Part shown: one piece after another, positions 6,149 through 60,482 of the stretch | Layout of the letters: every line of letters begins with the position of its first letter | How positions within the stretch are numbered: position 1 is the first letter of the stretch | DNA from: Thermomicrobiales bacterium | GTDB lineage: Bacteria; Chloroflexota; Chloroflexia; Thermomicrobiales; UBA6265 | Assembly: GCA_019637585.1 (NCBI GenBank) | Contig: JAHBVL010000001.1 | Span: 1 to 64,000, forward strand | Length of the DNA: 64,000 bases | Reading direction: 5' to 3' | The notes under the pieces: generated by a model | Databases searched by the model: none | Told to the model about the DNA's origin: nothing | The model's input: only the letters and a program-made list of their open reading frames with translations | Program-made: the position numbers and the translations under genes

Positions 6149-6332
6149 TTTCTCCGTCCCCTTTCGTCCAGACTCCCGGTTCCGGACCTTAATCATTGCG
6201 AGCAGCCATTCTCTCACAGTAGTTCAAGAACGGCTTCAGTCACACAAATGGTTCCATGCCGATGCCGATCGACGAATGCTTCACGAGCCGGCGTCAACGA
6301 CCGGAATCTCCACTGCTTTGGCGCGTCTCCTC

Positions 6333-8189: not shown

Positions 8190-8366
8190 GATACAAACAC
8201 CTTCCCGCCAGCACCAAACGGACGCAGCTTCTGCAGATTGCTGTTCTTTCGTGATTCGAGTATATCGACTCACCGCCTGCGTGCGGAAGTCACTCGCGTG
8301 ACGTGCTTTCCGCTGCGGGCGTGGCGAGGATGGGAGCTGGTGGAAGGGAGACTACGAAGCGGCGCT

Positions 8367-13265: not shown

Positions 13266-13733
13266 ATGATGGAAATCGGTCAAGGGGGATTCGCCGCGCA
13301 GCGCGTGCTGTCGAGCGACGATTCCTCCCGGCAACGGTTCGCGGGCGCCGCGAACGATCCTGTGCTTTCGCCGGCTGGCGCCACGCAGTTCGGCGATCAA
13401 GTCCATTGTTCCGTTTCGATCTATGCGGAGATCGTCCTCGGGCCGGGCGCCGGCAATGCCCTGGAGGGGGTGTTGCAGCTCGAGATCGCCGACGGCGGCG
13501 CTATCGACAGTGGCAGCCTGGATGTCGGCGGGCAATCCTACGCGCTCGTCGGTCAGGCGAATGGCCGCACCATCCGGTTGCTCGTCGAGGTGGAGAACGG
13601 GCAGCTGGTCGCGTTTACGGGCACGGCAGAGCAGCCACTCGATCTCTGCACAGGCACGATCTACGGTCAGTTCGGAGGACCGGAGATATCGAACGTCGGC
13701 TCCTGGAGCGGAGCCGCCATGGGGAGCGGTTGA
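13266..13733 (+). CDS. small exported-family protein with degenerate signal
   Basis: 155 residues from ATG 13266, with GAGGGG eight bases upstream. From AGATQFGDQVHC onward it aligns with the products of the next two genes: one Cys near the start, GNALEGVLQLEIADGGAIDSG, QANGRTIRLLVEVENG, a second Cys in LDLCTGTIYGQFGGP and a final GSWSG. It therefore belongs to the same ~120-residue two-cysteine beta domain family. Unlike its neighbours it lacks a hydrophobic signal core: SRQRFAGAANDPVLSPAGA looks like a decayed Tat signal. It overlaps the next gene by one base (TGATG). Confidence 0.65.
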   Translation: MMEIGQGGFAAQRVLSSDDSSRQRFAGAANDPVLSPAGATQFGDQVHCSVSIYAEIVLGPGAGNALEGVLQLEIADGGAIDSGSLDVGGQSYALVGQANGRTIRLLVEVENGQLVAFTGTAEQPLDLCTGTIYGQFGGPEISNVGSWSGAAMGSG

Positions 13734-14725
13734 TGAACGCCGAGCGCTTCGATACCTGGTCGAGAGCCCGCGTTCTGGGCATCACGCGACGACGACTGCT
13801 GCGAACGGTGTCCGCCGGGAGCGCTGGTGTTGCGCTCTCCCGTTTGGCTGGAACATCGGCCCAGTTTGGCGGCACGACAACGTGTCAGTACACCGTGCAG
13901 ATGACGACATCGCACGGACCCTCCATTGGAACCAGTTACTCGGGAACGCTGAACCTGGAAATCGGCGACGATGGGGCGATCGAGACAGGGACATTCACAC
14001 CGGCCCTGGCGACCTCTCAGCCGGTTGTCGGCCAGGCGAACGGCCATGGAGTCGATCTGCTGATTTCCCTGCCGGACGGCGGTGTTCTTTCGCTGACTGG
14101 TTCTGGAACCCAACCCATCGACACATGCGATGCCTCGATTCAGGGGTATTTCGGTGGTCCTGCAGCAACCGATCTGGGCACCTGGGAGGCCGAGCCGGGC
14201 GAGTCCGCCGCCAGCGGATCGGGATCTCAGGGCGCCCAGCAAAGCGGGCAGTCCTCCCAGCCTGTCTGCCCACCAGCAGAGTGCGGTCTCGCCTTCGTAC
14301 AGGACCCGGTCACCTGCCAGTGCGTCTGCGCTCCCGGTTTGCCGCCTTGCGGGGGCAACTGCTGCCCGGCCGGATCGAGCTGTTCCGAGGGCATCTGCCT
14401 GTGCCCAGGCGATGCTATCCAGTGCGGAACATCCTGCGTCGGCCCGTGCGGCGCCAATCAGTACGTCGATTACGACACCTGCCTGTGCACCGATGAGGAG
14501 GTTCCCGCCTGCACCCAGTCGGGCGGCGCCTGCCAGCAGGGCTTCCAGTGCTGTACGGGGTATTGCCAGAACGGCATCTGCGCCAGTTGCAACATCTCGA
14601 TCTGGGCGCAGGTCTGCGATGAGCAATGCGTCGATCTGCATACCAATCCCTATTACTGCGGCTCGTGTCTGAACAACTGCCTCATGCAGCAAAAGCAGGC
14701 ATGCCAAAACGGTGTCTGCGTTTAG
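13733..14725 (+). CDS. Tat-exported protein: beta domain plus Cys-rich tail
   Basis: 330 residues from ATG 13733, overlapping the previous stop. The N terminus carries a twin-arginine signal (ITRRRLLRTVSAG..., cleavage after GTSA before Gln). Residues ~40-155 form the small two-cysteine domain shared with both flanking genes (CQYTVQM, GTLNLEIGDDGAIETG, TCDASIQGYFGGP). After a Ser/Gln-rich linker the C-terminal ~145 residues are Cys-rich (CPPAECGLAF, CVCAPGLPPCGGNCCPAG, CQQGFQCCTGYC). The tail resembles the modules of the larger Tat Cys-rich proteins further right, so this gene joins two families. Role unknown. Confidence 0.75.
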   Translation: MNAERFDTWSRARVLGITRRRLLRTVSAGSAGVALSRLAGTSAQFGGTTTCQYTVQMTTSHGPSIGTSYSGTLNLEIGDDGAIETGTFTPALATSQPVVGQANGHGVDLLISLPDGGVLSLTGSGTQPIDTCDASIQGYFGGPAATDLGTWEAEPGESAASGSGSQGAQQSGQSSQPVCPPAECGLAFVQDPVTCQCVCAPGLPPCGGNCCPAGSSCSEGICLCPGDAIQCGTSCVGPCGANQYVDYDTCLCTDEEVPACTQSGGACQQGFQCCTGYCQNGICASCNISIWAQVCDEQCVDLHTNPYYCGSCLNNCLMQQKQACQNGVCV

Positions 14726-14771: not shown

Positions 14772-15233
14772 ATGGATCCGAACCGATTCGATGACTGGTC
14801 CCGATCGCTGGCCCGGCGGTTTTCCCGGCGGCAGATGGTGGGTTCTGCCGCGGCTCTCGGCGGCGCGACGCTGGCGCCGAGCGCTACTGCCGCTCAGTTT
14901 GGTGGGCAGAATTGCCAGTTCCAGGTGCGGGCCTCTATTGCGGCTGGCCCCTCCGCAGGGGCGAATCTGGAAGGGACGCTCGAGTTCACGGTCGATGCCG
15001 ACGGCGCAATCACGGCCGGATCGATGACGCCAGTCGGCAGCACGGCGATGGAGGTGCGGGGCAGTGCACGCGGCCGCGCCCTCGATCTGGTTGTCTCATT
15101 GCCGGACAACAAGGAACTCTCGTTCTCGGGCGCGGTCGCTCTTCTGGGCGACTCGTGCACCGGGCCAGCGGCCGGCGTTTTTGCCGGCCCCGAACCGGGC
15201 GATCTCGGGGCCTGGCGGGCGGAGACCGCCTAG
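14772..15233 (+). CDS. small Tat-exported two-cysteine protein
   Basis: 153 residues from ATG 14772, preceded by a purine-rich GGAGAGCAGG. It has a Tat signal (RRFSRRQMVGSAAALGG, cleavage ATAA before Gln) and one ~110-residue domain (NCQFQVRASIAAGPSAG, LEGTLEFTVDADGAITAG, SCTGPAAGVFAGPEPG). It is the third tandem member of this family and the simplest form: signal plus domain. It converges with the - strand giant surface-protein gene 25 bases away. No function is recognisable. Confidence 0.75.
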   Translation: MDPNRFDDWSRSLARRFSRRQMVGSAAALGGATLAPSATAAQFGGQNCQFQVRASIAAGPSAGANLEGTLEFTVDADGAITAGSMTPVGSTAMEVRGSARGRALDLVVSLPDNKELSFSGAVALLGDSCTGPAAGVFAGPEPGDLGAWRAETA

Positions 15234-15257: not shown

Positions 15258-18200
15258 CTAATTTCCAGGCAACGGCTGGAGCCCGCAGGTGAAGATACTC
15301 ACCTCGATCGGCGTTCCTTCCTCTACAACCAGATTGCCGGCCTGATCGAATCCCTTCGAATCGACAAAGCAGACGGAAGCCGGCAACTCCTCCATTTCAT
15401 AGGTATCGGGCCGCAAATCGGCGTGGGCGACACCGTCGGTATCGGTGGTCACCGAGTAGTCGATGCCAAACGGGTCGACCGAGGCGAAGGTGATCGTCAG
15501 GCCATCAACGCTTGGCTTGCATGTCGCCACATTGATCTGGCCGCCAGGACAGTCGAATGCCAGAACCGTCACGAGTGGCGTGGGCACGTTGTACCAGGAG
15601 CATTCGAGCGTTTCCCCGGCCACCAGACTCACGCCGATCTGTCCGCTCGGGCTGGCGTAAGCAAATGGGGCGAAGGGGTTGTCGGCGAAGATCGCCCGGC
15701 GGTTGCTGGAGCAGCCTGAAATGAATGCCGTATCGGTCGCTTGCGGCAGACGCATGCCGAGCAGATAGTTCCCCGCTTCGAGCGGAGCGAAGGTGATGCT
15801 GCCCTCCGCGATCGCGCCGGACACACCGGTCCTCTCCGTACCTGGCTCTGGTCCACCCAGGGTGAATTCCAGATCGTCGCCCGGTTCTTCGCAGTCTTCG
15901 GCGGGATCCGCGTCTTCCGCATAGACGTCGTAGCCGGCGTCGCAATTGGCGATAGAGAGAATCAGCACCGCGGTTTGCGATTGGCCGGTGGCCGGTGTGG
16001 AAATCACCGCCGCACCCGGAGGCTGAATCCCCGGTTGCACGGCAAGGGTCGTGACACCCGCCACCGTCGGTGTTGGAGACGGCCCGCCGGCGCCAAAGAT
16101 GTTCCCGGGAGCCCGGGTTGGTGTCGGCCCGGACGGCTGGAAGATGCTGCCGGTCCGCGTCGGCGTGGGCGTCGGCTGCGCCGGTGGCGGAGGAGGCGGC
16201 GGCGCCTGGGGTGGGACCGGTGTGACTGTGGGGGTCGCGGTGGCGGTCGGCGTTGTCGTCGGCGTTGCCGTCGGGGTGGGCGTGGGAGTTGGCTCGGTGG
16301 GATCGGCGGCGACCCAGATGCATTCCAATGAGAATCCGCCCACCAGATTGTAGAAGAGCGAATCATCTCGGTCGAAATCGCGCGATGTGAAGAGAAACTC
16401 GGCGAACTGGATCGACGTCCCTGTCGGCTTGGACGCACACAGCGTGAAACCCTTCTCAATGCCCGCCGGAGGCAAGAACTCGACCCTGATCAGTCCCCGG
16501 GCCAGATTGCTGACTTCGACGAGACTGATCTCATTTGTATCAATGGTTTCTGCAATGCCGGTGCCGCCTGTGATTCTGAAGCTCAATCCTTCCCGGCGCT
16601 TGCACTGGTCCAGCAACTGGATAACCAGCGGTTCCATCGAAGTCTGATTGTTTGCGTCTTCCAGAATCGCTTCCAATTGTGCGGTGGTGCAGACGCGTGC
16701 GTGGATGAGGACGCGGACCGGGTCTGTGGACGGCTCAGCCTCGGGACGGTCGAACCAATGGCACTGGACAATTCCGCCCGGAACGGGCGTGATCGCGAAT
16801 GCCCAGTTCTCGATGGGAACCTCGGTCATCGGAGAGGTACTGGAAACCCCATCGGTGAAGGTGGTCTGAGAGCAGAAGACTCTGGGAGCAGCGAAGAACG
16901 GTTTCTGCTCACGGCGGATGACCGACGCGCTAGGTGGCACGCCGGTCGTGAACATGAATCCGCCTTCGAGTTCTGCTTCGGCAACGACCTGCCCTCCCTG
17001 CTCGACTTTGAACGTTGTCGGGGGAAAGGCGACGAAAGCCGGGCAGTTGAGCTGGAAGTAGTCGCGGCCGACTCCATCCGGAACCGGAAGTCCCGGAGGA
17101 CAACGGAACTCGAAGATCGCGACGGCGCTGACCGCGTTTTCGTCTTCGGGCGCGAGTCCTGCCAGGGTGGGGCCGGCAAATCCCGGTATTGCGCCGGGCA
17201 GGGATATCTCCCCTGATTCCTCCGGAACGCTGCTTTCCTCGCCTTCTTCCGCCTCCTGGCTCTCAGACTCCGATCCTTCACCGGCAGACTGTGCCGGCTC
17301 CTCGGCCGCGTTGAACCAGTAGCAGATCACCTCCGGATAAGCGCTCAGATCACCGAGCTCGATACCGGGCGTCGCCGGATCGCTGGCGGCCAGATGGCCC
17401 TGCTCGGTTTCGCTATAGAGCAGCGTCGTTTGCGACCCGCAATAGGCAAATGCGGCCCGATAGTCCGGAACGGCCACCTCATAGAGGCGGATGAGCCCCG
17501 GGCCGAAATCAACGATCGCTGCGCCTGAACTGTCGGTTGGAGCCTGCTCGGAGACGAATCCGTCGTCCGAGGCGGTATAGAAGACGGCGCTTTGCGAACC
17601 CTGGGTGCACCCGGCGTTGGCCCAATCCTGGTATCCGGCGCCGGCAGCAGGAAGCGAACCGTCGCACCAGTATTTCAGGACCGAGATCTGCCCAACTGCG
17701 CCCGACTCGTCGTCGGATTCCTGCGACAAGACCGAGTCTTCACCTTCCTGGTCGGACGCTTCTTCTCCAGGGAGATCGCTCGCTGTCTCATCCTCGGATT
17801 CGGTCTCACCTTCGATCTCTTCTGCGTCTTCGGCTGGTGGAGCAGACTCGTCGGCCGCATTGAACCAGTAGCAGGTCACTTCCGGATAGGCGCTCAGGTC
17901 GCCAAGCTCGATTCCAGGCGTCACAGGATCGCTGGCGGCCAGGTGTCCCTGATCGGCTTCGCTGTAGAGGAGCGTCGCTTGCGACCCACAATAGGCAAAT
18001 GCGGCTCGATAGCCCGGAACCGCCACTTCATAGAGGCGGATGAGTCCCGGGCCGAAATCAACGATCGCCGCACCCGCGGCATCGGTCGATGCCTGCTCAG
18101 AGACAGACCCATCGTCCGACGCGGTGTAGAAAACGGCACTCTGCGATCCCTGCACGCAACCGGCGTTGGCCCATTCCTGATATCCGGCGCCAGCGGCGGG

Positions 18201-19769
18201 AAGTGAGCCGTCGCACCAGTATTTCAGGACCGAAATCTGACCACCGGCGGCCGGCTCGTCTTCGGGTTGCGAAAAGATCGAGTCTCCACCCTCTTCCTCG
18301 GACGTTTCCTCTTCGGGGAGATCGCTCGATGTTTCTCCCTGGGATTCTGTGTCCTGTTCGGTTTCGGTTGTCTGCGACTCTTCCCCGGTCTGCTCATCCT
18401 GACTCTCGACGCCGGTCGAGTCGGGCTGGCTTTCGGCCCCGCCATCTCCCGCTGCGCCGATGTTGAACCAGACACACGCCTGATATCCGTTCGGGTCGAT
18501 GTAGAGACCTAGCGAGGCAGTTCCATTCTCTATCGCGATTTGGTCGGGTGAGATCTCCTGGTAGCCTCCTCTCGCGCCCGAGCAGAAAACGCGAACGGCG
18601 GCATTAGTGGGGGGAATCGATTCGGCAATGCCGATGGCCACGCCATCGGGAGTGGTGAACTCGGGACCGGTCAGCGTATAGGGCGATCCGCCACTTCCCA
18701 GATCGCCGGCAGGACCACTCACCCGGAATTCGTGGCCATCCGTGGGGCTGCACTGCTGCTCCAACTCCTCCAGGGAAGCTTCCGGAGAAACCTCCGGGGC
18801 ACAGGTGTATTTGACGTTGGTGATGCCCGGCTCGTAGAGATTGATCCAAAGACAGGCGTATTCGCCGGCAGCGCTCGGCGCCCACTGAAATGGCATGCCT
18901 GGTTCGAGCGGCCCGCCGGTGTCGGTTGGGGTGAATGCGCCATCGACGACGACCCCGCACATGGGCCACTGCTGGAACTGGTGGTGATTCGTCGACTCGG
19001 CGGGCAGTTCACGGATGCTGATGGCCTGACCTGCGTAGCCTTCGAAGACGACCCGGCCCTGCTGGTGATCGAGGGTTCCCTGAGCCTGGAATCCTCCCTC
19101 CACGACAAATCCAATGTCTGGTGTGCCGGTGGAGCACTGCTCGTGAAATCCACCTTCGAGGAAACTCTGGACGATGTCGTCGAGGATCTCCGTGCCGACG
19201 CAGGAGATCTTGTCGATCGTCAGTCCGGACGACTGTCCACCACCGGAGGCGTTGAACCAGGTGCAGGTCACCTGAGCATAGTCGAGCAGCGCCGGGTCTC
19301 CGATGCTGATGACCCCGCCAGACGCCGGCTGATAGCTTTCGATATCGGATGCGCCACTCGCGGAGGCGGAGTAATAGCAGTGGACCCAGGGGTCGGACTG
19401 ACCTTCCGGCATCACCTCGCTCACACTGAACCCGACCCCACCCGGGATGTCCGACCACCCGGTGAAACCATTGCCGTCAGTGGTCGCGGCGTTGAAATAG
19501 TTGCCATCGAACGTCTGAATCTGGAATTCCCAGCCGCCGCCCGGGGAGGCGCAGTCGCCAAACGCCTGGCCGGCCGAAACCGAGCCCGGATCGTAGCCGG
19601 GCGGACAGAGGAGTTTGGTGACCTGGAATGTCAGATTGCCGGGCTGGGATGCCGCAGGTGGGGGAGGAATTGAGGGAACGAGGGCCAGAATCAGCGTGAG
19701 AAGGATACCCAGCATCACGATCCGGCGAGAGAGGAATCCAGACAATGGGCTACGTGCGGACACTATCAT
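15258..19769 (-). CDS. giant secreted surface protein with repeated Cys domains
   Basis: 1503 residues. GGAGG lies three bases before ATG 19769 and nine before GTG 19763, so the GTG may be the true start. A signal peptide (LGILLTLILALVPSIPPPPAAS, then Gln) leads to a series of ~100-130-residue domains. Many begin with KxxCPPG or KYWCDG and end with a CYWFNA/CTWFNA-type Cys-x-Trp-Phe motif, suggesting prealbumin-like or SpaA-like sandwiches closed by a disulfide. Acidic Glu/Ser/Thr-rich linkers separate them. Two domains near residues 505-820 are near-identical. A TPTPTPTATPTTTP stalk lies near 1200, followed by two or three more domains. No sortase motif or C-terminal membrane anchor is visible. 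A structural surface or adhesive role is inferred. Confidence 0.8.
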   Translation of the reverse strand: MIVSARSPLSGFLSRRIVMLGILLTLILALVPSIPPPPAASQPGNLTFQVTKLLCPPGYDPGSVSAGQAFGDCASPGGGWEFQIQTFDGNYFNAATTDGNGFTGWSDIPGGVGFSVSEVMPEGQSDPWVHCYYSASASGASDIESYQPASGGVISIGDPALLDYAQVTCTWFNASGGGQSSGLTIDKISCVGTEILDDIVQSFLEGGFHEQCSTGTPDIGFVVEGGFQAQGTLDHQQGRVVFEGYAGQAISIRELPAESTNHHQFQQWPMCGVVVDGAFTPTDTGGPLEPGMPFQWAPSAAGEYACLWINLYEPGITNVKYTCAPEVSPEASLEELEQQCSPTDGHEFRVSGPAGDLGSGGSPYTLTGPEFTTPDGVAIGIAESIPPTNAAVRVFCSGARGGYQEISPDQIAIENGTASLGLYIDPNGYQACVWFNIGAAGDGGAESQPDSTGVESQDEQTGEESQTTETEQDTESQGETSSDLPEEETSEEEGGDSIFSQPEDEPAAGGQISVLKYWCDGSLPAAGAGYQEWANAGCVQGSQSAVFYTASDDGSVSEQASTDAAGAAIVDFGPGLIRLYEVAVPGYRAAFAYCGSQATLLYSEADQGHLAASDPVTPGIELGDLSAYPEVTCYWFNAADESAPPAEDAEEIEGETESEDETASDLPGEEASDQEGEDSVLSQESDDESGAVGQISVLKYWCDGSLPAAGAGYQDWANAGCTQGSQSAVFYTASDDGFVSEQAPTDSSGAAIVDFGPGLIRLYEVAVPDYRAAFAYCGSQTTLLYSETEQGHLAASDPATPGIELGDLSAYPEVICYWFNAAEEPAQSAGEGSESESQEAEEGEESSVPEESGEISLPGAIPGFAGPTLAGLAPEDENAVSAVAIFEFRCPPGLPVPDGVGRDYFQLNCPAFVAFPPTTFKVEQGGQVVAEAELEGGFMFTTGVPPSASVIRREQKPFFAAPRVFCSQTTFTDGVSSTSPMTEVPIENWAFAITPVPGGIVQCHWFDRPEAEPSTDPVRVLIHARVCTTAQLEAILEDANNQTSMEPLVIQLLDQCKRREGLSFRITGGTGIAETIDTNEISLVEVSNLARGLIRVEFLPPAGIEKGFTLCASKPTGTSIQFAEFLFTSRDFDRDDSLFYNLVGGFSLECIWVAADPTEPTPTPTPTATPTTTPTATATPTVTPVPPQAPPPPPPPAQPTPTPTRTGSIFQPSGPTPTRAPGNIFGAGGPSPTPTVAGVTTLAVQPGIQPPGAAVISTPATGQSQTAVLILSIANCDAGYDVYAEDADPAEDCEEPGDDLEFTLGGPEPGTERTGVSGAIAEGSITFAPLEAGNYLLGMRLPQATDTAFISGCSSNRRAIFADNPFAPFAYASPSGQIGVSLVAGETLECSWYNVPTPLVTVLAFDCPGGQINVATCKPSVDGLTITFASVDPFGIDYSVTTDTDGVAHADLRPDTYEMEELPASVCFVDSKGFDQAGNLVVEEGTPIEVSIFTCGLQPLPGN
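17304..18240. repeat. 549-bp tandem duplication inside the giant surface gene
   Basis: The segments ~17304-17690 and ~17853-18240 are near-identical at DNA level at a constant offset of 549 bp (183 codons). Each encodes one KYWCDGSLPAAGAGYQ...CYWFNA domain. The acidic linkers between them have diverged more than the domains. The offset is a multiple of three, so the frame is kept. Confidence 0.88.
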
Positions 19770-21405: not shown

Positions 21406-22788
21406 TTACAGGTTGTTCAGTTGGTCGATCTCGTTCGGGCAGGCGGTTTCCAACTGCTCCAAGAGGACCGACGCTTCGCCCTCTCCCTCGAACGCAGCCA
21501 TGGCCGTTTCGGCCATGTCGATCGCCACCTGGGCTGAAGCGGGATCGTTGTTCTCGAGTGCAATAGCGATCTGCTCCGTCGCATCGGCCAGAACTTCGAA
21601 GAACTGGTCCGCGAAGAAGGTGTTCAAGGCAACAGCTGCGACCGGTGGATTGCTGTCCCTGGTCTCCTGGGCCAGCGTTTCGAATTGAGCGGAGGCTTCG
21701 CGCAGGGCCACCGGATCGAGATCCGCGGGTTCGACGTCCTCGAAGGTGGCGATGAGTGCGTTCGCCGAGAGGAGCCGCGTCAGCAGGCCGGAGCCCCAGG
21801 CCACGAGCCCCTCACAGTCCGGACTGCTGGGAACCGGCACAGCGGTCGGCTGTGCGGCGAGTGCCGGAGCGCCGAGTGCGAGGTCGGCCACCACACTGCT
21901 GCGCGAATAACCATCGCCATAGACGATCTGGACGATGGGGATTCCCTCCAACACCTGGAAGTAGACAAGTCCGCGCTGCTCTTCACCTGGCGCAAGATCG
22001 AGATAGTCGAAACTGACCAGTCCAGGATCAGTCGTCGTCACCCATGGTTGATCGAGGAGAAATCCCAGGTCGTCGGTCGCGTAGAAGCTCGACGGCGAGG
22101 TCGACAGGGTGCTGTTGCTCAGATTGGCGACAGTCACATCCACGGCCACGTAGCGGGAGCCTCGCGGCGGCGCCGAGTAGTCGTCATAGGCATCGAATGG
22201 ATCGCCCACGCCATTGATGGTCACCCGCGCAATCTCGGAGCCGGACGAACCAACAATGCTCACCGGCGTTCCCGCGGCCACCTGCTCGGTGCGAAGATCG
22301 GCGATGGTCGTGGTGACATCGAAGTTGGGCGAAAAGAGGATGCGGCTTATCGAGGTGCCGGAAAACGCCTCGAAGACGACCAGACCACTGGCCTCCGTAC
22401 CCGGCGCCAGCGCATCCGTGTACTCGAGCAGGGTTGCCGTCGATTCCGAATTGAGCGACATGGATGAACCGTTAGACACGAATCCGTCCGAGTCGACCAT
22501 GACGAGGTCATAGGGATCGACTTCGATCGGCCGCTGCGATCCATTCGCCACGGTGAGATCGATCGCCACGTAGTGATAGCCGCGCTGCGGTTCGTAGTAG
22601 GTGTCGAACTCCTCGAACGGATCGACCACCTCGTTGATCGTGATCGTGCCGATCTGGTTGCCGTCGACACTATAGAAAGGCACTGGCGAACCAATAGCGC
22701 CCGCGGTTTGGGCCACAACCGGAACCGGCAAGGACATCGAACCGAAAAGCGCTACCATCAGCGCCGTCACCAGGAATTTCCTCATCAT
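21406..22788 (-). CDS. secreted protein with two DUF4352-like domains
   Basis: 460 residues from ATG 22788, with GAGG eight bases upstream; a longer open frame to 22971 lacks support. A signal peptide (MMRKFLVTALMVALFGSM..., cleavage PVVA before Gln) precedes two ~120-residue repeats with the same plan: ITINEVVDPFEEFDTYYEPQRGY and VTINGVGDPFDAYDDYSAPPRG, then YVAIDLTV or YVAVDVTV. This is the pattern of DUF4352/telomeric-repeat-binding-factor-like immunoglobulin domains found in secreted Gram-positive proteins. The C-terminal ~140 residues are Ala-rich and probably helical, with two cysteines. Role unknown, probably extracellular. Confidence 0.75.
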   Translation of the reverse strand: MMRKFLVTALMVALFGSMSLPVPVVAQTAGAIGSPVPFYSVDGNQIGTITINEVVDPFEEFDTYYEPQRGYHYVAIDLTVANGSQRPIEVDPYDLVMVDSDGFVSNGSSMSLNSESTATLLEYTDALAPGTEASGLVVFEAFSGTSISRILFSPNFDVTTTIADLRTEQVAAGTPVSIVGSSGSEIARVTINGVGDPFDAYDDYSAPPRGSRYVAVDVTVANLSNSTLSTSPSSFYATDDLGFLLDQPWVTTTDPGLVSFDYLDLAPGEEQRGLVYFQVLEGIPIVQIVYGDGYSRSSVVADLALGAPALAAQPTAVPVPSSPDCEGLVAWGSGLLTRLLSANALIATFEDVEPADLDPVALREASAQFETLAQETRDSNPPVAAVALNTFFADQFFEVLADATEQIAIALENNDPASAQVAIDMAETAMAAFEGEGEASVLLEQLETACPNEIDQLNNL

Positions 22789-22992
22789 CCCATCGTCCTC
22801 CCACATTTCGAGGATCGGTGCAGAAGCTGCACCTACTATCACCAACCCTACACGTGTGTAGCCACGGAACGCAATACGCGCGCACACCAATTCCTCTGTC
22901 GATGCCACACAGGTTTGCAGAGGTTCTGGGGCTTCGGCATGCCGGAAATCGTCCTCATTGTGGCTATCCACTGTGGAAGGGGGTGATCAACG

Positions 22993-39277: not shown

Positions 39278-41098
39278 CTAGTACATGATGCACTGGCCAG
39301 CTGTGCACGGATAGGTGCCACCGGCACAACAGGTATCAACTCCAACCACGCACCAGTTGCCTTCGTTGATGCATCCACAATAGCCGTAACTGCTGCAGCT
39401 CCCGTTGCAGCATTGGTTGTGATTCGTGCAAGTCGAGGCCGGTCCGTCCGGAAGACAGCACAACCCGGCGGAACCGCAGGTCCCGGATGTGCACTCGCAT
39501 GTGATCTGGGTGAGGCAGGTTTCGGTGAAGGTCCCACATTGATCGCCGAGATTCCCGGCAGGGCAACTATCCGGCGAACAACACCCCCCGATCGCCGCCG
39601 CCGAAACCTCCGAGGCTGTGCCGGTATCGAGACAGATGTCGCCGGTATCGCAGCACGTGTTGGAGCAGCAGTGGTTTCCGCCGCAGTCGTTCGACGAAAG
39701 GCACTCGCCACAATACTCGGATGCTGCGTCGAGGCAGTACGGGGCATCTGCACTACAACAAATCGAACCACAGCGTTCACCAGCTGGGCAGGGCGGCAGC
39801 GTGGTGGTGGTGGTCGTCGTGGTCGGTTGCGGCGGTTCACAATTCTCCGGATTGAGCAGGCAGACTCCAAACCCTCCGTCGCAGGATGGAATGACGCGCC
39901 GGAAGCAAACATACCCGGCGCCGACATTCGCCTCGCAGTCGTTATCCGAGAAACAGTCGAAGCAGAGGCCATCATCGGAGCCAATCACGCAATGTGCGTT
40001 TCCGGCGGCATCCGCGGCGCACTCGCCTGGGGCCGAGTCAAGTTCACAAGGTTCCTCGCAGCAGCAGAAATTCTCAGCGCACGGGTGCACGCATTCAACG
40101 CCGTTCGACGCTTTGAACGGCGGGCAACCGGGGGGAAGCGTCGTGGTTGTGGTTGGGGTGATACAGACGTGCGATTCCTGGGCAGGTCCCACTTCGCCAT
40201 TCGGAGCGGCCACGCACATCTGACCAGCAGCGCAGCAGACCAGATCGCAGCAGATCTGGTTCTCCCCGCAGATGCCGTCGTTCAGGATAGGAACGCACGA
40301 CCCCGCGTTGCACGCCCAGCAGGAGGCATCGGTACCGGGGTTGTCCGCCGTGCAATCCGCGGCATCGCAGCAGGCAGTTTCCGCCCGGCAGGCGCCAGGT
40401 GTCTCCAATGTACCGTCCACCGGACAGCACTTCGGTGTGTCGCCACTGCAGCATTGCCAGTCGCTGAAGTCGACCCGACAGACCGTGTTGCCCTCTGGGC
40501 AGCAGCTCGTCTGGGCCACCCGGACCGGATGACCGTTGAGGAAAAACTCCTCGGTCTCCTCGTACCATACGGGACCCTGAATCGGGTCGAAGCAGGCGCC
40601 ATCGCAGCACTGGTTGTCGCAGGCCAGATGGGCCGGACAGCACATCTCTTCCTCGACGTTGGGACCCTCGGGGAAGACTCTGGTCAGGCAGGTGTGGTCG
40701 GCGGCGCAACACTCACGATCGCAGCAGGCATAGCTGGGAAACCTGTACTGGTCTGTTGCTACGCAACATTCGCGTCCGCAGACATGACCGGTGCAGCAGA
40801 TGGCCTGATTGCCGGAGCGGGCGCAGGTTCCCGCCGGACAGCAGACCGTGCTGTTGGGGCATTGCTCTTCGCCCGGCGGACAGGGGGCCGGTGTCGTGGT
40901 CGAGCTGGTGGTCGTCGCCGGCGGCGGTGGTTCCGGAATGGTGGGACGGGTTCGCGCGTCCCGGGCGCCGGCCTGGTCGGCAACCACAGAACCAGCTGCA
41001 GCGGCGCCGCCAATACCGAGAAACCCCTTGATAAGGGTACGACGAGAAGCCCCCTGGCCAAAAAGACGGGTCAGCTGGTCAAAACGCGTATCGTCCAT
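39278..41098 (-). CDS. Tat-exported Cys-rich protein C
   Basis: 606 residues from ATG 41098; an upstream in-frame start is unlikely because MDDTRFDQLTRLFGQG is the family N terminus. The Tat signal (SRRTLIKGFLGIGG) is followed by GARDARTRPTIPEPPPP and a Thr/Pro linker. The first module has CPNSTVCCPAGTC, CGRECC and [10 protein letters not shown], then several CC modules. After a second poly-Thr linker (TTTTTTTTLPP near 430) comes AGERCGSICCSADAPYC, matching the C-terminal part of protein B, and a terminal CNHNQCCNGSC-like segment. Shared but reordered modules between B and C indicate domain shuffling. Confidence 0.8.
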   Translation of the reverse strand: MDDTRFDQLTRLFGQGASRRTLIKGFLGIGGAAAAGSVVADQAGARDARTRPTIPEPPPPATTTSSTTTPAPCPPGEEQCPNSTVCCPAGTCARSGNQAICCTGHVCGRECCVATDQYRFPSYACCDRECCAADHTCLTRVFPEGPNVEEEMCCPAHLACDNQCCDGACFDPIQGPVWYEETEEFFLNGHPVRVAQTSCCPEGNTVCRVDFSDWQCCSGDTPKCCPVDGTLETPGACRAETACCDAADCTADNPGTDASCWACNAGSCVPILNDGICGENQICCDLVCCAAGQMCVAAPNGEVGPAQESHVCITPTTTTTLPPGCPPFKASNGVECVHPCAENFCCCEEPCELDSAPGECAADAAGNAHCVIGSDDGLCFDCFSDNDCEANVGAGYVCFRRVIPSCDGGFGVCLLNPENCEPPQPTTTTTTTTLPPCPAGERCGSICCSADAPYCLDAASEYCGECLSSNDCGGNHCCSNTCCDTGDICLDTGTASEVSAAAIGGCCSPDSCPAGNLGDQCGTFTETCLTQITCECTSGTCGSAGLCCLPDGPASTCTNHNQCCNGSCSSYGYCGCINEGNWCVVGVDTCCAGGTYPCTAGQCIMY

Positions 41099-42992: not shown

Positions 42993-43907
42993 CTATTCGA
43001 CGGTAATCACCTTGAACATCCCCATGGCGGCATGCACCGGCACACTGCCAGGTCCGCTCATGAAGCAGAAAGCGATGTACTGACCCGGTTGCAGATCGAG
43101 CTCGATCCAGCTCGTTTGCCCGGTCGAGAGCACTGCCGCACCCCCGGCCTCGACAAAGAGCGATGGGTCGAGCAGCGTGTCGGGGTCCGCCGCCGGCGTG
43201 GCGGCTGTTCCAAACATGCTGTCCAGCGTCGCCTGCACCTGATCGGCGGTCACGGCTTCTGGATAGGACTGAATCGCCATGAAGTGGAGGAACGATCCCT
43301 TGTTGTGGACCTGCCAGATGTGATCGCCCGCTAGAATGGAGTCTGGCATGTCGAACGCCATCTCCTGCATATCGACAGTGACGTCGGCGGCCGGATCGGT
43401 CAGTTCCGGCATGTCGCCAGTCACTGTCAGCTTCGCCGGCAACACTGCCGGCGCCGCATCCTCGTTCGCTGGAGACGCGGTGAGATCGAGAATCCAGTCG
43501 CCCGCCGTGAGGTCGACGATCGCCTCACCGCTTCCACCCGGTCCGGCCGACGCGCCACCCGCAATCACCAACTGATAGTAGATGTCGGGAGGCTGTGGCG
43601 CGGAGCGGTCGGCCTGCTCCATCACCGTCTTCATATCATCGAAAGTCTTGTCGTCCGGCACCTTCTCCAATTGAAGATCGGCGCTCAGATCCGCGCTGGA
43701 GTTCTGGACGACGAGGTGATACCGGCCGGCGGCTATCTCCGCGGGGGCTGACACGGTCGATCCGTCGGTCGACACAACCAGATCGGGAAAACCGAGAGCA
43801 GCCAGCAGCGATGCACCGGTGGACGGCGTCGACTCCTGTGCCAATCCAGCCGAAGACGCAAACAGAAGCAGCGCCACCGCGGCAAAGAGACCCATTATTT
43901 TGGACAT
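42993..43907 (-). CDS. secreted cupredoxin-like protein
   Basis: 304 residues from the ATG at 43907, with GGGAGG upstream. The signal peptide (MSKIMGLFAAVALLLFASSAGLA) is cleaved before Gln. Two beta-sandwich halves are visible: one around LVVSTDGSTVSAPAEIAAGRYHLVVQN, the second around MAFDMPDSILAGDHIWQVHNKGSFLHFMAIQ and the C-terminal QYIAFCFMSGPG with PVHAAMGM. His, Cys, His and Met in the second half resemble the type 1 copper set of plastocyanin-like proteins (H in LHFM, then C-F-M, H-A-A-M). Copper binding is inferred. It lies between the phage portal and connector genes in the opposite orientation. Confidence 0.65.
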   Translation of the reverse strand: MSKIMGLFAAVALLLFASSAGLAQESTPSTGASLLAALGFPDLVVSTDGSTVSAPAEIAAGRYHLVVQNSSADLSADLQLEKVPDDKTFDDMKTVMEQADRSAPQPPDIYYQLVIAGGASAGPGGSGEAIVDLTAGDWILDLTASPANEDAAPAVLPAKLTVTGDMPELTDPAADVTVDMQEMAFDMPDSILAGDHIWQVHNKGSFLHFMAIQSYPEAVTADQVQATLDSMFGTAATPAADPDTLLDPSLFVEAGGAAVLSTGQTSWIELDLQPGQYIAFCFMSGPGSVPVHAAMGMFKVITVE

Positions 43908-44117
43908 GGAAGTATGCCTCCCTTGGACGAACAAGGCGAAACGCAGCTATTCGACTCGGAGGAGGGTGACTATTGGAGGCGCCGTCGCGGTCCTGAGAGT
44001 CCACCTGAAATATTACTGAACAGCCGGCAGCACTACCTTAACGCCAGATGAAGATTCCCCCTTTGCCCTTCTGCCGGCTGCCTGCTCCCGACACCTTCAC
44101 GAAGGAAAGGCACAACG

Positions 44118-44726: not shown

Positions 44727-45782
44727 TCATTCGACGACGGTGATGCTCCCGAGCATGATCGGATGGAGCGCGCAGAAATAGTCGTAGGTGCCGGGTGTGT
44801 CGAATGTCACCGAAAAAGTCTGACCTTTCCCGAACTGTGGGGACGCGAAACCGCTTCCTTTCGGCAACTGCGAGACGTCGTGGGGGAAGTTGTCCTTGTT
44901 CGTCCATGTCACGGTATCGCCAACGTGGATTTCCAGTGTGGCGGGCGTAAACGTGAACTGGGCGATCTCCACCTGCCATGTCTGCGGCTCGGCAATTGCC
45001 GCCGGAGTCCCCTCGGGTGTCGCAGCTGGCGCAGCACCTTCCAGCGACGCATATGGCAGCGCGATCGCCGTTCCTGCGGTCGCTGTTTCGACGGTGACAC
45101 TGGCGTTCTCGGTGATGTAGCTGAGCACCGCCGCGGTACGCACCGTTCCCGAAAGCGACTCGGTGACCCGGACCGTCGCGTTGGAAGCTGTCTCCAGATC
45201 GACTGTTGCGCTCTCACTCTCCAGATATGCGCCGTCGTAGGTCGAGGCGTTCGCCACGTCGATGTCCTGCGAGCCGGCCTTACCCGAGATGGTGGCCACT
45301 GAAGCCAGATCGAGATCGACTTCGAGATCGGCGACATCGATGTTCGTCAGCGTGGCCGTCGCCACGCCAGACAGATCCAGATCGAACTCCGGTGCGACGA
45401 GCCCGTCGAGTGTCGCGGTCACCGGACCGGTCAGGTCGAGATCGGTCAGCGTTGGGGTGACGATCAGGTAGTCGATTCCACCATGCGGGAGCATGTCGAA
45501 ACCGACCGACGCACTGAACCCAATCGTCAGCTCGCCATCCTCGACTGAGGTCGTGAAGAGTCTGGCGATCGTTTCCGGAGCGGTGATCTCCACCCGGCTG
45601 TCGTCACCGATCTCGATGACAACATTGCCCGCGCCTCGCAGGTGGATTTCATCAAATGGCTCGACATCGAGGACGGTGGTGGTCCGTTCATCGGCAGCCT
45701 GGGAACCCCTCGCCGCGAATCCAGCAACGAGCGCCAGTGAAAAGACCGTAGACAGCACCAGTATTACCCGCAGGGCTTTCAT
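44727..45782 (-). CDS. secreted GIN-domain and cupredoxin fusion
   Basis: 351 residues from ATG 45782, with AGAAAGG upstream. A signal peptide (MKALRVILVLSTVFSLALVAGF) precedes a DUF2807/'putative auto-transporter adhesin, head GIN' beta-helix (FDEIHLRGAGNVVIEIGDDSRVEIT, then repeated DLDLTGPVTATL, DLDLSGVATATL and DLDLASVATI rungs) to residue ~240. A plastocyanin-like domain ends the protein with copper ligands in NFPHDVS and YFCALHPIM (His, Cys, His, Met). The GIN-cupredoxin fusion is unusual to me. It sits tail to tail with the connector gene, only nine bases apart, and converges with it. Confidence 0.78.
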   Translation of the reverse strand: MKALRVILVLSTVFSLALVAGFAARGSQAADERTTTVLDVEPFDEIHLRGAGNVVIEIGDDSRVEITAPETIARLFTTSVEDGELTIGFSASVGFDMLPHGGIDYLIVTPTLTDLDLTGPVTATLDGLVAPEFDLDLSGVATATLTNIDVADLEVDLDLASVATISGKAGSQDIDVANASTYDGAYLESESATVDLETASNATVRVTESLSGTVRTAAVLSYITENASVTVETATAGTAIALPYASLEGAAPAATPEGTPAAIAEPQTWQVEIAQFTFTPATLEIHVGDTVTWTNKDNFPHDVSQLPKGSGFASPQFGKGQTFSVTFDTPGTYDYFCALHPIMLGSITVVE

Positions 45783-45877
45783 TGAAGCTGGGACCTTTCT
45801 GGGAGGACGAAAGACAAACGCAAAACGGCTGATTCTCGCACACGGCGACATCGTCAGAACAGGGGAGGGCAACGCAG

Positions 45878-46201
45878 ATGCCGATCGGATGGGCAAGCGA
45901 TGGCGGAGAACGACCAGCGTCGCCGGCACGTGAACCGGAGAGATTCACCTGGGCCGAGAGGGTCAAAGCCGCCGCGCAGCAGATCATCCACAACCTGACC
46001 GGTCTCGACTCTCCAGGCCGCGATCTGATTCCCACCGTCTGGACGCGCTGGGAAACCGCGATCGACGATCGCGTCTGCCAAACATGCGCCCCCTATGCCG
46101 GCCGCGCCTGGCCCGCCGCCGACGGCCCCCACCCGCCCCTCCACCCAGGATGCCGGTGCCAGCGCCGGGTGGCGTATGTAACGTGGGCAGTACGCAATTG
46201 A
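45878..46201 (+). CDS. short Mu-F-like phage head morphogenesis protein
   Basis: 107 residues. The C-terminal half carries the diagnostic pattern TAIDDRVCQTCAPYAG, RAWPAADGP and PPLHPGCRCQRRV, i.e. the Cys-x-x-Cys...His-Pro-x-Cys-x-Cys metal site of Mu gpF/SPP1 gp7-type minor head proteins. Typical members exceed 200 residues and are often fused to or next to the portal. Here the N-terminal half is reduced to ~55 residues and the gene is 3.3 kb from the portal. It may be a reduced but selected remnant, since the metal site is complete. Confidence 0.65.
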   Translation: MPIGWASDGGERPASPAREPERFTWAERVKAAAQQIIHNLTGLDSPGRDLIPTVWTRWETAIDDRVCQTCAPYAGRAWPAADGPHPPLHPGCRCQRRVAYVTWAVRN

Positions 46202-46630: not shown

Positions 46631-47695
46631 ATGGCATCATCAGAACTGTCCACAGTCAGCAGACGGCGTCTCATGGAAGCGTTTGGCGCATTGGGTGTCG
46701 TTGGCGCCGCTGGCGCTGCAACGACCATGCTGGCCAATCCCGGCCCAGCCCTGGCCTCCACTACAACGGACCACGATCACAGCGCCGCGACCACATCCAG
46801 CGCGGCGGACGACGAGATGACCGCCGATGAAATGGACGCCATGCACGAGGCTGGCGTGCTCTCCTTCCCGGCGGAAACCGCGGGCAAGGGTGGTGAGCTC
46901 CTCGAATACGAGATGGACGGCGATGTCAAGGTCTTCAACCTGACCTGCTCCGTCGTCGATTGGGAGTACCTGCCCGGCAAGACGGTCGATGCGTGGGCGT
47001 ACAACGGCGTCGTTCCCGGACCGCAGATCCGCGTCACCGAAGGCGACACCGTTCGCATCCACGTGAAAAACGAGCTGCCACAATCGACAGCGGTCCACTG
47101 GCACGGGCTGCGTGTGCCGAACAACATGGACGGCGTCCCCTTCATCACCCAGCCGCCCATCAAACCGGGCGAGACCTTCACCTACGAGTTCCCTATCAAG
47201 GAAGGAAACGCCGGGTCCCACATGTATCACTCGCACCACAATGCGGCTGACCAGGTGACCCGGGGACTGCTCGGCGCGTTCATCGTTGAGGAAAAAGACG
47301 AAGCAGCCCGCTACGACGTCGATGTCGACTACACGATGGTGCTCAACGACGGGCCGATCGGCGCATACAGCATCAACGGAAAGAGCTTCCCCGCGACGGA
47401 ACCCGTCGTGGCCAAGGTGGGGCAGAAGGTGCTCATCCGGTTCATGAACGAGGGCCTGATGATCCATCCCATGCACCTGCACGGGTTCCCAATGCAGGTC
47501 GTCGCGCTGGACGGCTACGCCGTGCCCCAACCCTATTGGCAGGACACCGTGAACATCGCGCCCGGCCAGCGAGTCGATTGCATCGCCGAACCGGACGAAC
47601 CAGGCGTCTGGGCCTTCCACTGCCACATCCTCAACCACGCGGAGAGCAAGCACGGCATGTTCGGCATGGTCACGGCGATGGTGGTCGAGGAGTAG
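46631..47695 (+). CDS. Tat-exported two-domain multicopper oxidase
   Basis: 354 residues from ATG 46631 with GAAGGAGAGAG upstream. A Tat signal (SRRRLMEAFGALGVVG) precedes a His/Asp/Met-rich segment (TTTDHDHSA, DDEMTADEMDAMHE) that could bind copper. Two cupredoxin domains follow with all four copper motifs: HWHGLR, HSHHNA, HPMHLHG and HCHILNHAESKHGM. This set gives type 1, 2 and 3 sites, as in small laccases and related oxidases. It probably oxidises metal ions or phenolics outside the membrane. It is the third copper-type gene within 5 kb, all interleaved with phage-type genes. Confidence 0.9.
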   Translation: MASSELSTVSRRRLMEAFGALGVVGAAGAATTMLANPGPALASTTTDHDHSAATTSSAADDEMTADEMDAMHEAGVLSFPAETAGKGGELLEYEMDGDVKVFNLTCSVVDWEYLPGKTVDAWAYNGVVPGPQIRVTEGDTVRIHVKNELPQSTAVHWHGLRVPNNMDGVPFITQPPIKPGETFTYEFPIKEGNAGSHMYHSHHNAADQVTRGLLGAFIVEEKDEAARYDVDVDYTMVLNDGPIGAYSINGKSFPATEPVVAKVGQKVLIRFMNEGLMIHPMHLHGFPMQVVALDGYAVPQPYWQDTVNIAPGQRVDCIAEPDEPGVWAFHCHILNHAESKHGMFGMVTAMVVEE

Positions 47696-57719: not shown

Positions 57720-58520
57720 ATGAACAGACGCCGATTTCTCGAGGCCTCGGCCGGTGGCATGCTGGCGACGAGGCTGGTTCGGCCCTACACGCCCGTCAGC
57801 GCCGCCCAGGAATCCGATTCACCCCAGGTCTGGGGGTTCCAGGTGATCGATGCCTACCCTCACGACCCGAATGCCTATACCCAGGGATTGGTCTACATCG
57901 CCGATGGCTTCCTGGAGGGCACCGGGCTGCGGGGTCAGTCGGATCTCAGAGAAACCGTGCTCGAAACCGGGGAGGTCCTGCGCCAGGTTCCCCTCGCCGA
58001 CGAATACTTCGGCGAAGGTATCGCTCTGGTCGACGATCGCATCTACCAGATCACCTGGCAGGAAGAAAGGGCATTTCTCTACGAGCGGGAGACCTTCGAG
58101 AAAGTCGCGGAATTCCGCTACCAGGGAGAAGGGTGGGGGCTCACCTGGAACGAGGAGCACCTGGTGATGTCCAATGGCTCGAATATGATTGTCTATCGCG
58201 ATCCCGAAACGTTCGACATCGTCAGAGAAATCGCGGTCATGGCCGGCGACCGCCCGGTGGACCGTCTCAACGAGCTCGAATGGATCAATGATGAGATCTG
58301 GGCCAACGTCTACCAAACCGACTGGATCGCCCGCATCGACTCTGAATCGGGACAGGTCAGGAGCTGGGTCGACCTTCGTGGTCTCCTGCCGCTCGCCCCG
58401 GGCGAGTCATATCCCGGGGTGCTAAACGGCATCGCCTGGGACGCTGACGGCGAGCGGCTTTTCGTTACCGGCAAGTTCTGGCCCACGCTCTTCCACATCG
58501 AGCTTCTCGCCTTTCAATAG
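57720..58520 (+). CDS. glutaminyl-peptide cyclotransferase, Tat-exported
   Basis: 266 residues of the bacterial/plant-type glutamine cyclotransferase family (five-bladed propeller). It has the diagnostic start of the mature domain: DAYPHDPNAYTQGLVY, EGTGLRGQSDLRE, GEGIALVDDRIYQITWQE, GEGWGLTWNEEHLVMSNGSN and the C-terminal YPGVLNGIAWDADGERLFVTGKFWP. The enzyme turns N-terminal Gln into pyroglutamate. A short Tat signal (MNRRRFLEASAGGM) ends at SAA before its own Gln. It sits alone between two Cys-rich genes. Many secreted proteins in this window are predicted to expose an N-terminal Gln, so it has ready local substrates. Confidence 0.9.
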   Translation: MNRRRFLEASAGGMLATRLVRPYTPVSAAQESDSPQVWGFQVIDAYPHDPNAYTQGLVYIADGFLEGTGLRGQSDLRETVLETGEVLRQVPLADEYFGEGIALVDDRIYQITWQEERAFLYERETFEKVAEFRYQGEGWGLTWNEEHLVMSNGSNMIVYRDPETFDIVREIAVMAGDRPVDRLNELEWINDEIWANVYQTDWIARIDSESGQVRSWVDLRGLLPLAPGESYPGVLNGIAWDADGERLFVTGKFWPTLFHIELLAFQ

Positions 58521-58676: not shown

Positions 58677-60482
58677 ATGGACTGCGAGCGCTTCGATCGG
58701 CTCACCCGCCTCCTGGGCGAAGGCGCCTCACGCCGCTCGGTGCTCAGGAGTCTCCTCGGGTTCGGCGGCGCCGTCGTCGCTGTCCCAGCCACTGAATCGG
58801 TTGCCGGCGCCCGGACCTCACGCGGCCGCCCGACCATCCCTCCCCCCGACCTACCTGACTGCCTGTTGCCCGACCAAATGTGTGGTGGTGTTTGCTGCGG
58901 CGCGGGACTGTGCAAGGAGAACCACTGTTGTGACTCTGCTTCCGCCGTCTGGTGCGGCAACGCCTGCTGCGAAAACGGACTGTGCACGACCACCGGCGCG
59001 TGCTGCGACGACGGCGCCCTGGTCTGCGGCACTCTCTGTTGCGCGCCGACTGCGTCCTGCGGGCGATCCGGGAACGCGGACATCTGCTGCGACCCGGCAA
59101 ATGGCCAGGCTCCCTGCGGACTCGACTGTTGCGCCAGCGAATCGCAGTGTTGCGGAAGAGAATGCTGCCCGCCCGACGCCCTTTGTCTGGCGCGCGTCTT
59201 CGGCGGATACCCGGAAGAACTCTGCTGCCCCGAGTCGCTGACCTGTGATGGGCAATGTTGCACCGGGACCTGCTTCAGCCCAATAGGCGAGAGTCGTACC
59301 GGTCCAAATCGGGTCTGCTGCCCGCCAGCGCTTCTCTTCTGCCCCGATCTGAACGACCCAACCCAGGGCTCGTGCTGCGAAAAGTGCTGTCACGATGACA
59401 CTGGGCTGCCGCTATGCGCCGGATCATCACAATGCTGTCCTGGTGACTGCGACGGGCTCGCCGATCCATCGCAATGCCTCGAAGGTGTGTGCATCGACGG
59501 CACATGCGCGCAACAGCCGATCTGCGCAAACGGCGAGCATTGTTGTGCGGAGGGAGGCAGCCATTGCTGTCCTGAGGGGCAGGAATGTTGTGGCGAGGAG
59601 TGTTGCGCGACCGGGACGCATTGCTGCGGCGATGGTCGTTGCTGTCCCGATGGGCAGCAATGCTGCGACGACGGATGTTGCGAAGCGGGAGCGTTCTGTT
59701 GTGAGAGCGGAGATCGTCACTGCTGCGCCGGCGAACAGGAGTGCTGCGGCGACCAGTGCTGCGATCCCGGCCGGGAATGTTGCGGCAGCGCATGTTGCGA
59801 AACGGGAGAGTCATGCTGCGAGCGAACGGTCGACGGAGCGACGGTTTTCGTTTGCATTCCCGAAGAGGCAACCTGCTGCAGCACTGACGACGAGTGCGCC
59901 GCTCTGAGCCAATGCGCACCCACCACACAAGGCAGGTTCTGGCATGAGATCAGCACCTGCGGCGCGGGCGGCTACTGCATCGTCGAGGAGGGGAACAGCA
60001 CCCTCTGCGAATCGAGCGGTCCCTGCCAGGCAGCCACTTGCGACGTGACGGCGGGCTGCGGCACGGCCATCGTGCCGAACTACACGGTGGTTTCAGGCGG
60101 CGTCTGCTGTAACAACGGAGAGTTCATCAGCGGTGGAAACTGCTGTGCCGGTCAACTCTGCCCGGCCCCCGACTACTGCACATACGAAGTTCTCTGCAAC
60201 AACAACCGGTGCCCGACCTCTCCCTGCGTTCCTGGAAATCAGCCTTGCGATTACGCATTCTGTTCCTATGAGGGCACGTGCGTGTTCGGGAACAACTGTC
60301 CGGGAGGCGTTGGCCAGAGAGGTCAGAATCAGGCCTGCGATTACAACTGTCAGTGCGCGACCTCACCGGGGAACCCGCGATTCTGCCTGAAGAGCTTTGG
60401 CGACCCCTACGGATACTGCCTGAGCTTTGGCGGGCCGGGCAATCCTCAGCCCCTCTGTCCTCCACCTCCAACGCCGACCTAG
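58677..60482 (+). CDS. Tat-exported Cys-rich protein G, densest Cys-Cys repeats
   Basis: 601 residues from ATG 58677. N terminus MDCERFDRLTRLLGEG, Tat motif SRRSVLRSLLGFGG, then AGARTSRGRPTIPPP. The first modules follow the family (CGGVCCGAGLC, CGNACCENGLC, CGLDCCASESQCC). Residues ~275-400 are an unusually dense series of Cys-Cys pairs every 5-8 residues (HCCAEGGSHCCPEGQECC, ECCATGTHCCGDGRCC, GDQCCDPGRECC), close to a granulin-like pattern. The C-terminal ~200 residues are sparser. It has no Thr linkers, unlike A-E, and is the only large member on the + strand. A disulfide ladder or metal binding is inferred. Confidence 0.8.
   Translation: MDCERFDRLTRLLGEGASRRSVLRSLLGFGGAVVAVPATESVAGARTSRGRPTIPPPDLPDCLLPDQMCGGVCCGAGLCKENHCCDSASAVWCGNACCENGLCTTTGACCDDGALVCGTLCCAPTASCGRSGNADICCDPANGQAPCGLDCCASESQCCGRECCPPDALCLARVFGGYPEELCCPESLTCDGQCCTGTCFSPIGESRTGPNRVCCPPALLFCPDLNDPTQGSCCEKCCHDDTGLPLCAGSSQCCPGDCDGLADPSQCLEGVCIDGTCAQQPICANGEHCCAEGGSHCCPEGQECCGEECCATGTHCCGDGRCCPDGQQCCDDGCCEAGAFCCESGDRHCCAGEQECCGDQCCDPGRECCGSACCETGESCCERTVDGATVFVCIPEEATCCSTDDECAALSQCAPTTQGRFWHEISTCGAGGYCIVEEGNSTLCESSGPCQAATCDVTAGCGTAIVPNYTVVSGGVCCNNGEFISGGNCCAGQLCPAPDYCTYEVLCNNNRCPTSPCVPGNQPCDYAFCSYEGTCVFGNNCPGGVGQRGQNQACDYNCQCATSPGNPRFCLKSFGDPYGYCLSFGGPGNPQPLCPPPPTPT

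Follow-up and report, generated by a model that had tools for sequence, protein, structure and literature searches.

Glutamine at the first mature position of exported proteins as a family trait in Thermomicrobiales, with and without a plant-type glutaminyl cyclase

The preference for Gln directly after the signal peptidase cleavage site, or Q-rule, has so far been described as a feature of Bacteroidetes and explained by enzymatic pyroglutamate formation. There, according to Bochtler et al. (2018, PMC5837995), Gln occupies position +1 in 71% of the substrates on average and the pathway usually includes a glutaminyl cyclase; a follow-up study argued, for Porphyromonas, that pyroglutamate protects from aminopeptidases (PMC10653852). 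Outside Bacteroidetes, a continuum of Q-values with 'no obvious pattern' has been described, with high values in some Chlorobi, in Ignavibacterium (77%), and in a few cyanobacteria (PMC5837995). For Chloroflexota, our literature search found no earlier report of high Gln at +1. The window analyzed here, a stretch of 64,000 nucleotides from a Thermomicrobiales bacterium (contig JAHBVL010000001.1), resembles the Bacteroidetes case in that a large share of exported proteins carries Gln at +1 whatever the protein type, and in that its genome encodes an exported cyclase with an intact active site. In contrast with the 71% of Bacteroidetes, the share is about 46-68% by another predictor and is raised in one family of the order only; moreover, the cyclase is found in about a quarter of the genomes of this family, with no effect on the bias. 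High Gln at +1 outside Bacteroidetes is already known from the scattered cases above; what is new is the family boundary of the bias and its independence from the plant-type cyclase, in Chloroflexota. A lineage that is biased both with and without a cyclase separates the rule from its enzymatic explanation.

The gene at 57720-58520 (plus strand) encodes a plant-type (type I) glutaminyl cyclase of 266 residues; the first-pass annotation had already called it a glutaminyl cyclase. Its product matches PF05096 with 304 bits (cut-off 22.3; profile positions 15-249 out of 249 in total) and is the sole PF05096 match in the genome of the window, while an NCBIfam scan of this product returned no match. 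Its relatives in the PDB are 3mbr, 3nol, and the papaya enzyme CpQC (2faw/2iwa). The key positions named for CpQC are Q24, E69, N155, and K225 (PMC5837995). Alignment to 2faw and 90 relatives indicates that their equivalents are all kept, within the motifs TQG, FGEG, LNELE, and TGKFW, and these four catalytic positions are almost invariant across the 91 aligned cyclase sequences. The full-length family match and the four catalytic positions, including the Gln at CpQC Q24, are shared with the plant-type cyclases CpQC and 3mbr (Xanthomonas-type). The enzyme of the window differs in being soluble with an RR-type signal (MNRRRFLEA...), whereas its relatives in another family of the order (f3; the families of Thermomicrobiales are coded f1-f5, f1 being that of the window) are of the lipoprotein form, like those of Bacteroidetes. 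The signal is twin-arginine-like and the predicted cleavage is SAA/QESDS (the slash marks the cleavage site), so that the mature end of the cyclase would itself start with Gln, with an ambiguity of one residue (VSA/AQ versus SAA/Q). The product is an ordinary, exported, and probably active enzyme.

Besides the cyclase, eight exported products of the window had been listed as having Gln next to the cleavage site predicted for them, and all nine read as claimed when their frames are read from the sequence. On the minus strand, these are a Gly-rich protein whose gene is cut by the window edge (1-366, VGA/QDSEG), a protein with Gly-Thr repeats (4142-6217, VAA/QTTYS), an exported protein at 6333-8273 (VGG/QPATS), a repeat protein of 1503 residues (15258-19769, AAS/QPGNL), a DUF4352 protein read from an internal start before MMRKFLVTALM (21406-22971, VVA/QTA), and an exported protein at 42993-43934 (GLA/QESTP). 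On the plus strand, a Cys-containing protein with an RR-type signal (13733-14725, TSA/QFGGT) is followed by its paralog, also with an RR-type signal (about 14772-15233, TAA/QFGGQ), whose cleavage site is ambiguous by one residue (ATA/AQ), as is that of the cyclase. Since the 13733 and 14772 products are paralogs and two of the nine N termini are ambiguous, the independent cases number fewer than nine. Of the two repeat-bearing products, that of 4142-6217 contains Gly-Thr tracts (TGTTGTTG...) of collagen-like low complexity, and that of 15258-19769 contains repeated blocks (ISVLKYWCDGSLPAAG..., CYWFN), returns a weak SpaA/prealbumin-like match, and is possibly a surface protein.

Exceptions to Gln also occur within the window. 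The multicopper-oxidase-like protein (46631-47695, plus strand) reads ALA/STTT, which agrees with its having been singled out as an exception, and a further non-Gln product, absent from the earlier list, is an exported copper protein with a plastocyanin/amicyanin domain (44727-45929, minus strand, SQA/ADERT). Two large Cys-rich paralogs with an RR-type N terminus (RFD.LTRL...SRR) carry Arg at the likely +1 position: the product of 58677-60482 (plus strand, 109 Cys, AGA/RTSRG), which adjoins the cyclase gene and returned no match in a Pfam scan, and that of 39278-41098 (minus strand, 92 Cys, AGA/RDART). The Arg itself is thus read in both, but the 'clear second class' that had been built on it was not adopted, its sole basis being these two paralogs.

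Cleavage sites in this genome and in others were called with a home-made semi-Markov model, other than SignalP, of the n-, h-, and c-regions with emissions at positions -3 to -1; it was trained on pooled data, never scores position +1, and relies on start codons picked automatically. It replaced an earlier rule-based scan, dropped for cutting too early and admitting membrane proteins. On E. coli, the model recovers established mature starts, including MalE KIEEG, LamB VDFHG, OmpC AEVYN, and ModA DEGKI. Over the 463 kb sampled from the genome of the window, 17 of the 37 signal-peptidase-I candidates have Gln at +1 at the loosest cut-off, and the share rises with stricter ones, to 15/27 and then 13/19. 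The same model returns 0/17 for E. coli and 8/18 (44%) for a Persicobacter megaplasmid, used as the Bacteroidota control. The Gln share exceeds the published floor of about 48%, except that the loosest cut, at 46%, falls just under it. As the mature-region rate is about 4%, Gln at +1 is far above background in this sample and at the level of the Bacteroidota control, and the Q-rule-like bias suspected from the window alone extends genome-wide. In several of the remaining non-Gln calls, the site is misplaced by a residue or a few, and the mature protein likely begins with Gln. Across all f1 genomes with a cyclase, the excess of Gln at +1 reaches p = 3.5e-19, and it is found for Sec-type and RR-type signals alike. 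A home-made predictor, the presence of some paralogs in the window, and the one-residue ambiguities could suggest that the signal was produced by the predictor, by Ala-rich c-regions, or by paralog expansion. This is very improbable, since the model contains no +1 term, Gln is at its background rate at positions from about +2/+3 to +10, E. coli and the Q-rule control behave as described, and the bias remains after homology clustering.

The first-pass annotation tied the rule to the cyclase, as its explanation or marker, and proposed tabulating the +1 residue against phyla that lack the enzyme; the comparison across the order bears out the bias but shows no drop within f1 in the absence of the enzyme. 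Inside f1, Gln stands at +1 in 24/55 candidates from genomes with a cyclase and in 10/21 from genomes without (Fisher p = 0.80), whereas the other families of the order reach 1/8 with and 1/20 without (cluster-weighted, in the same order, 0.39, 0.31, 0.20, and 0.06; the samples beyond the genome of the window are small, with 21 candidates for cyclase-less f1 and 8 for the other cyclase-bearing families). Families f2-f5 together give 2/28, and the difference between f1 and the rest of the order is significant (p = 3e-4). PF05096 is present in 14 of the 61 relatives in the order-level set, and 24 of the 32 f1 genomes return no match, near-complete ones among them; the cyclase-less f1 genomes sampled here (G003, G012, and G021) are 91, 90, and 98% complete, respectively. 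That a species following the rule always has an exported glutaminyl cyclase holds in the genome of the window and fails in the PF05096-negative f1 genomes. Degenerate DNA patterns counted over the 61 whole genomes, noisy and dominated by background, lend weak support: f1 has a Gln to Asp/Glu ratio of 0.58 and f3 one of 0.39 (p = 0.001), and inside f1 the ratio is 0.54 with and 0.59 without the cyclase. Since f1 is biased with and without PF05096 and the other families are unbiased either way, the Gln rule is a family trait, not tied to the cyclase, and the neighboring enzyme is probably not its cause.

The strong bias and the exported cyclase with an intact active site in the genome of the window are nonetheless what a coupling of the Bacteroidetes type would produce, in which the enzyme would modify the majority of exported proteins, selection for the pyroglutamate that it makes would maintain Gln at +1, and the cyclase-less relatives would reflect recent loss or an unrecognised replacement. 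A single origin of the f1 cyclases, compatible with such a coupling, is not rejected by an AU test (p = 0.35). Against it stand the 24 PF05096-negative f1 genomes, of which the sampled ones are still biased, the PF05096-positive f3 genomes that show no bias, and the sequence of the cyclase itself, which is closer to that of a betaproteobacterium (54% identity) than to the aligned cyclases of its own family (49-51%); we therefore consider this coupling rather unlikely. In the tree, a single clade unites the f1 cyclases of G011, G014, G017, and G018, the f3 cyclases group with Bacteroidota and the f5 ones with Acidobacteriota, and that of the window stands apart from the others with weak support. 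Its higher identity to another phylum than to its own family raises the suspicion of a horizontal transfer, which the AU result tempers. Being compatible with one origin, that result leaves the patchy distribution in f1 attributable to either loss or transfer. The PF05096-negative f1 genomes may contain a cyclase of an unrecognised type, or a cyclase gene in missing contigs. An animal-type (M28, single-zinc) substitute appears unlikely from the strongest M28 matches, the full-length ones of G003 (one) and G021 (two), which carry the two-metal aminopeptidase pattern (GADDNASG, EEVG); G012 has partial matches only. The closest PDB entries to the G003 protein are bacterial aminopeptidases.

The account that we favor, and hold to be reasonably probable, is a family-wide preference for Gln at +1 in f1 that is maintained by selection on export and cleavage or by a benefit of pyroglutamate, the patchy cyclase being neither its cause nor a requirement. 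Signal peptidase I would expose Gln as the first mature residue of f1 proteins exported with Sec and twin-arginine signals, and the preference would be kept by selection at this step or by the advantage of a self-closing N terminus. The N-terminal Gln would then turn into pyroglutamate, unaided or through an exported cyclase where the genome has one, and the enzyme encoded at 57720-58520 probably cyclises, or completes the modification of, exported N termini where it is present. The closed end would resist aminopeptidases and so shield the mature proteins. Another possibility is a pure substrate preference, in which the signal peptidase I of f1 recognises Gln at P1' and pyroglutamate plays no part, which would fit a bias that is independent of the cyclase and the same in Sec and RR-type signals. 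N-terminal Gln would, however, cyclise slowly even with no enzyme, and we judge a pure peptidase preference to be unlikely. Within the favored family-wide preference, it is quite possible, though somewhat less likely than not, that the Q-rule arose in this Chloroflexota family without any cyclase, Gln being selected for itself through a cleavage preference or unaided cyclisation, and that some lines took up cyclases at a later stage. Conversely, if the f1 ancestor had a cyclase and its loss in many lines is recent, Gln at +1 could be left over from that ancestral state. Species of this family with and without the enzyme can serve as a natural experiment to tell selection of Gln at +1 for pyroglutamate from selection for aminopeptidase resistance or by the signal peptidase.

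PF05096 is found in many phyla, and 80 loci bearing it were scored for Gln at +1. The neighborhoods of the cyclase are mostly without Gln bias: the share is low around the loci of Alpha-, Gamma-, and Deltaproteobacteria and of other Chloroflexota (1/9), reaches 40% in Bacteroidota, and is elevated for Acidobacteriota (6/19) and for Deinococcota (3/7). By these loci and the counts within and outside f1, possession of the enzyme is no predictor of the bias, and the bias can persist where the enzyme is lacking. The parallel rule that had been suggested for the phylum as a whole finds no counterpart in the other Chloroflexota loci or in families f2-f5, and among the Chloroflexota sampled the bias is confined to the family. 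The PF05096 cyclases of L008, L010, and L012 (f3 and f5) are lipoprotein-like (LVSC/GPLG, LPAC/GARA), as in Bacteroidetes. Since the f3 cyclase is of this form and belongs to a separate lineage, the f3 genomes may be an unfair test of a soluble exported cyclase. Lastly, the raised Gln at +1 around the cyclase of Acidobacteriota and of Meiothermus, the latter accounting for the 3/7, was observed at L198, L203, L204, L206, L207, L224, L236, L238, L257, and L273, and at L230 and L240.
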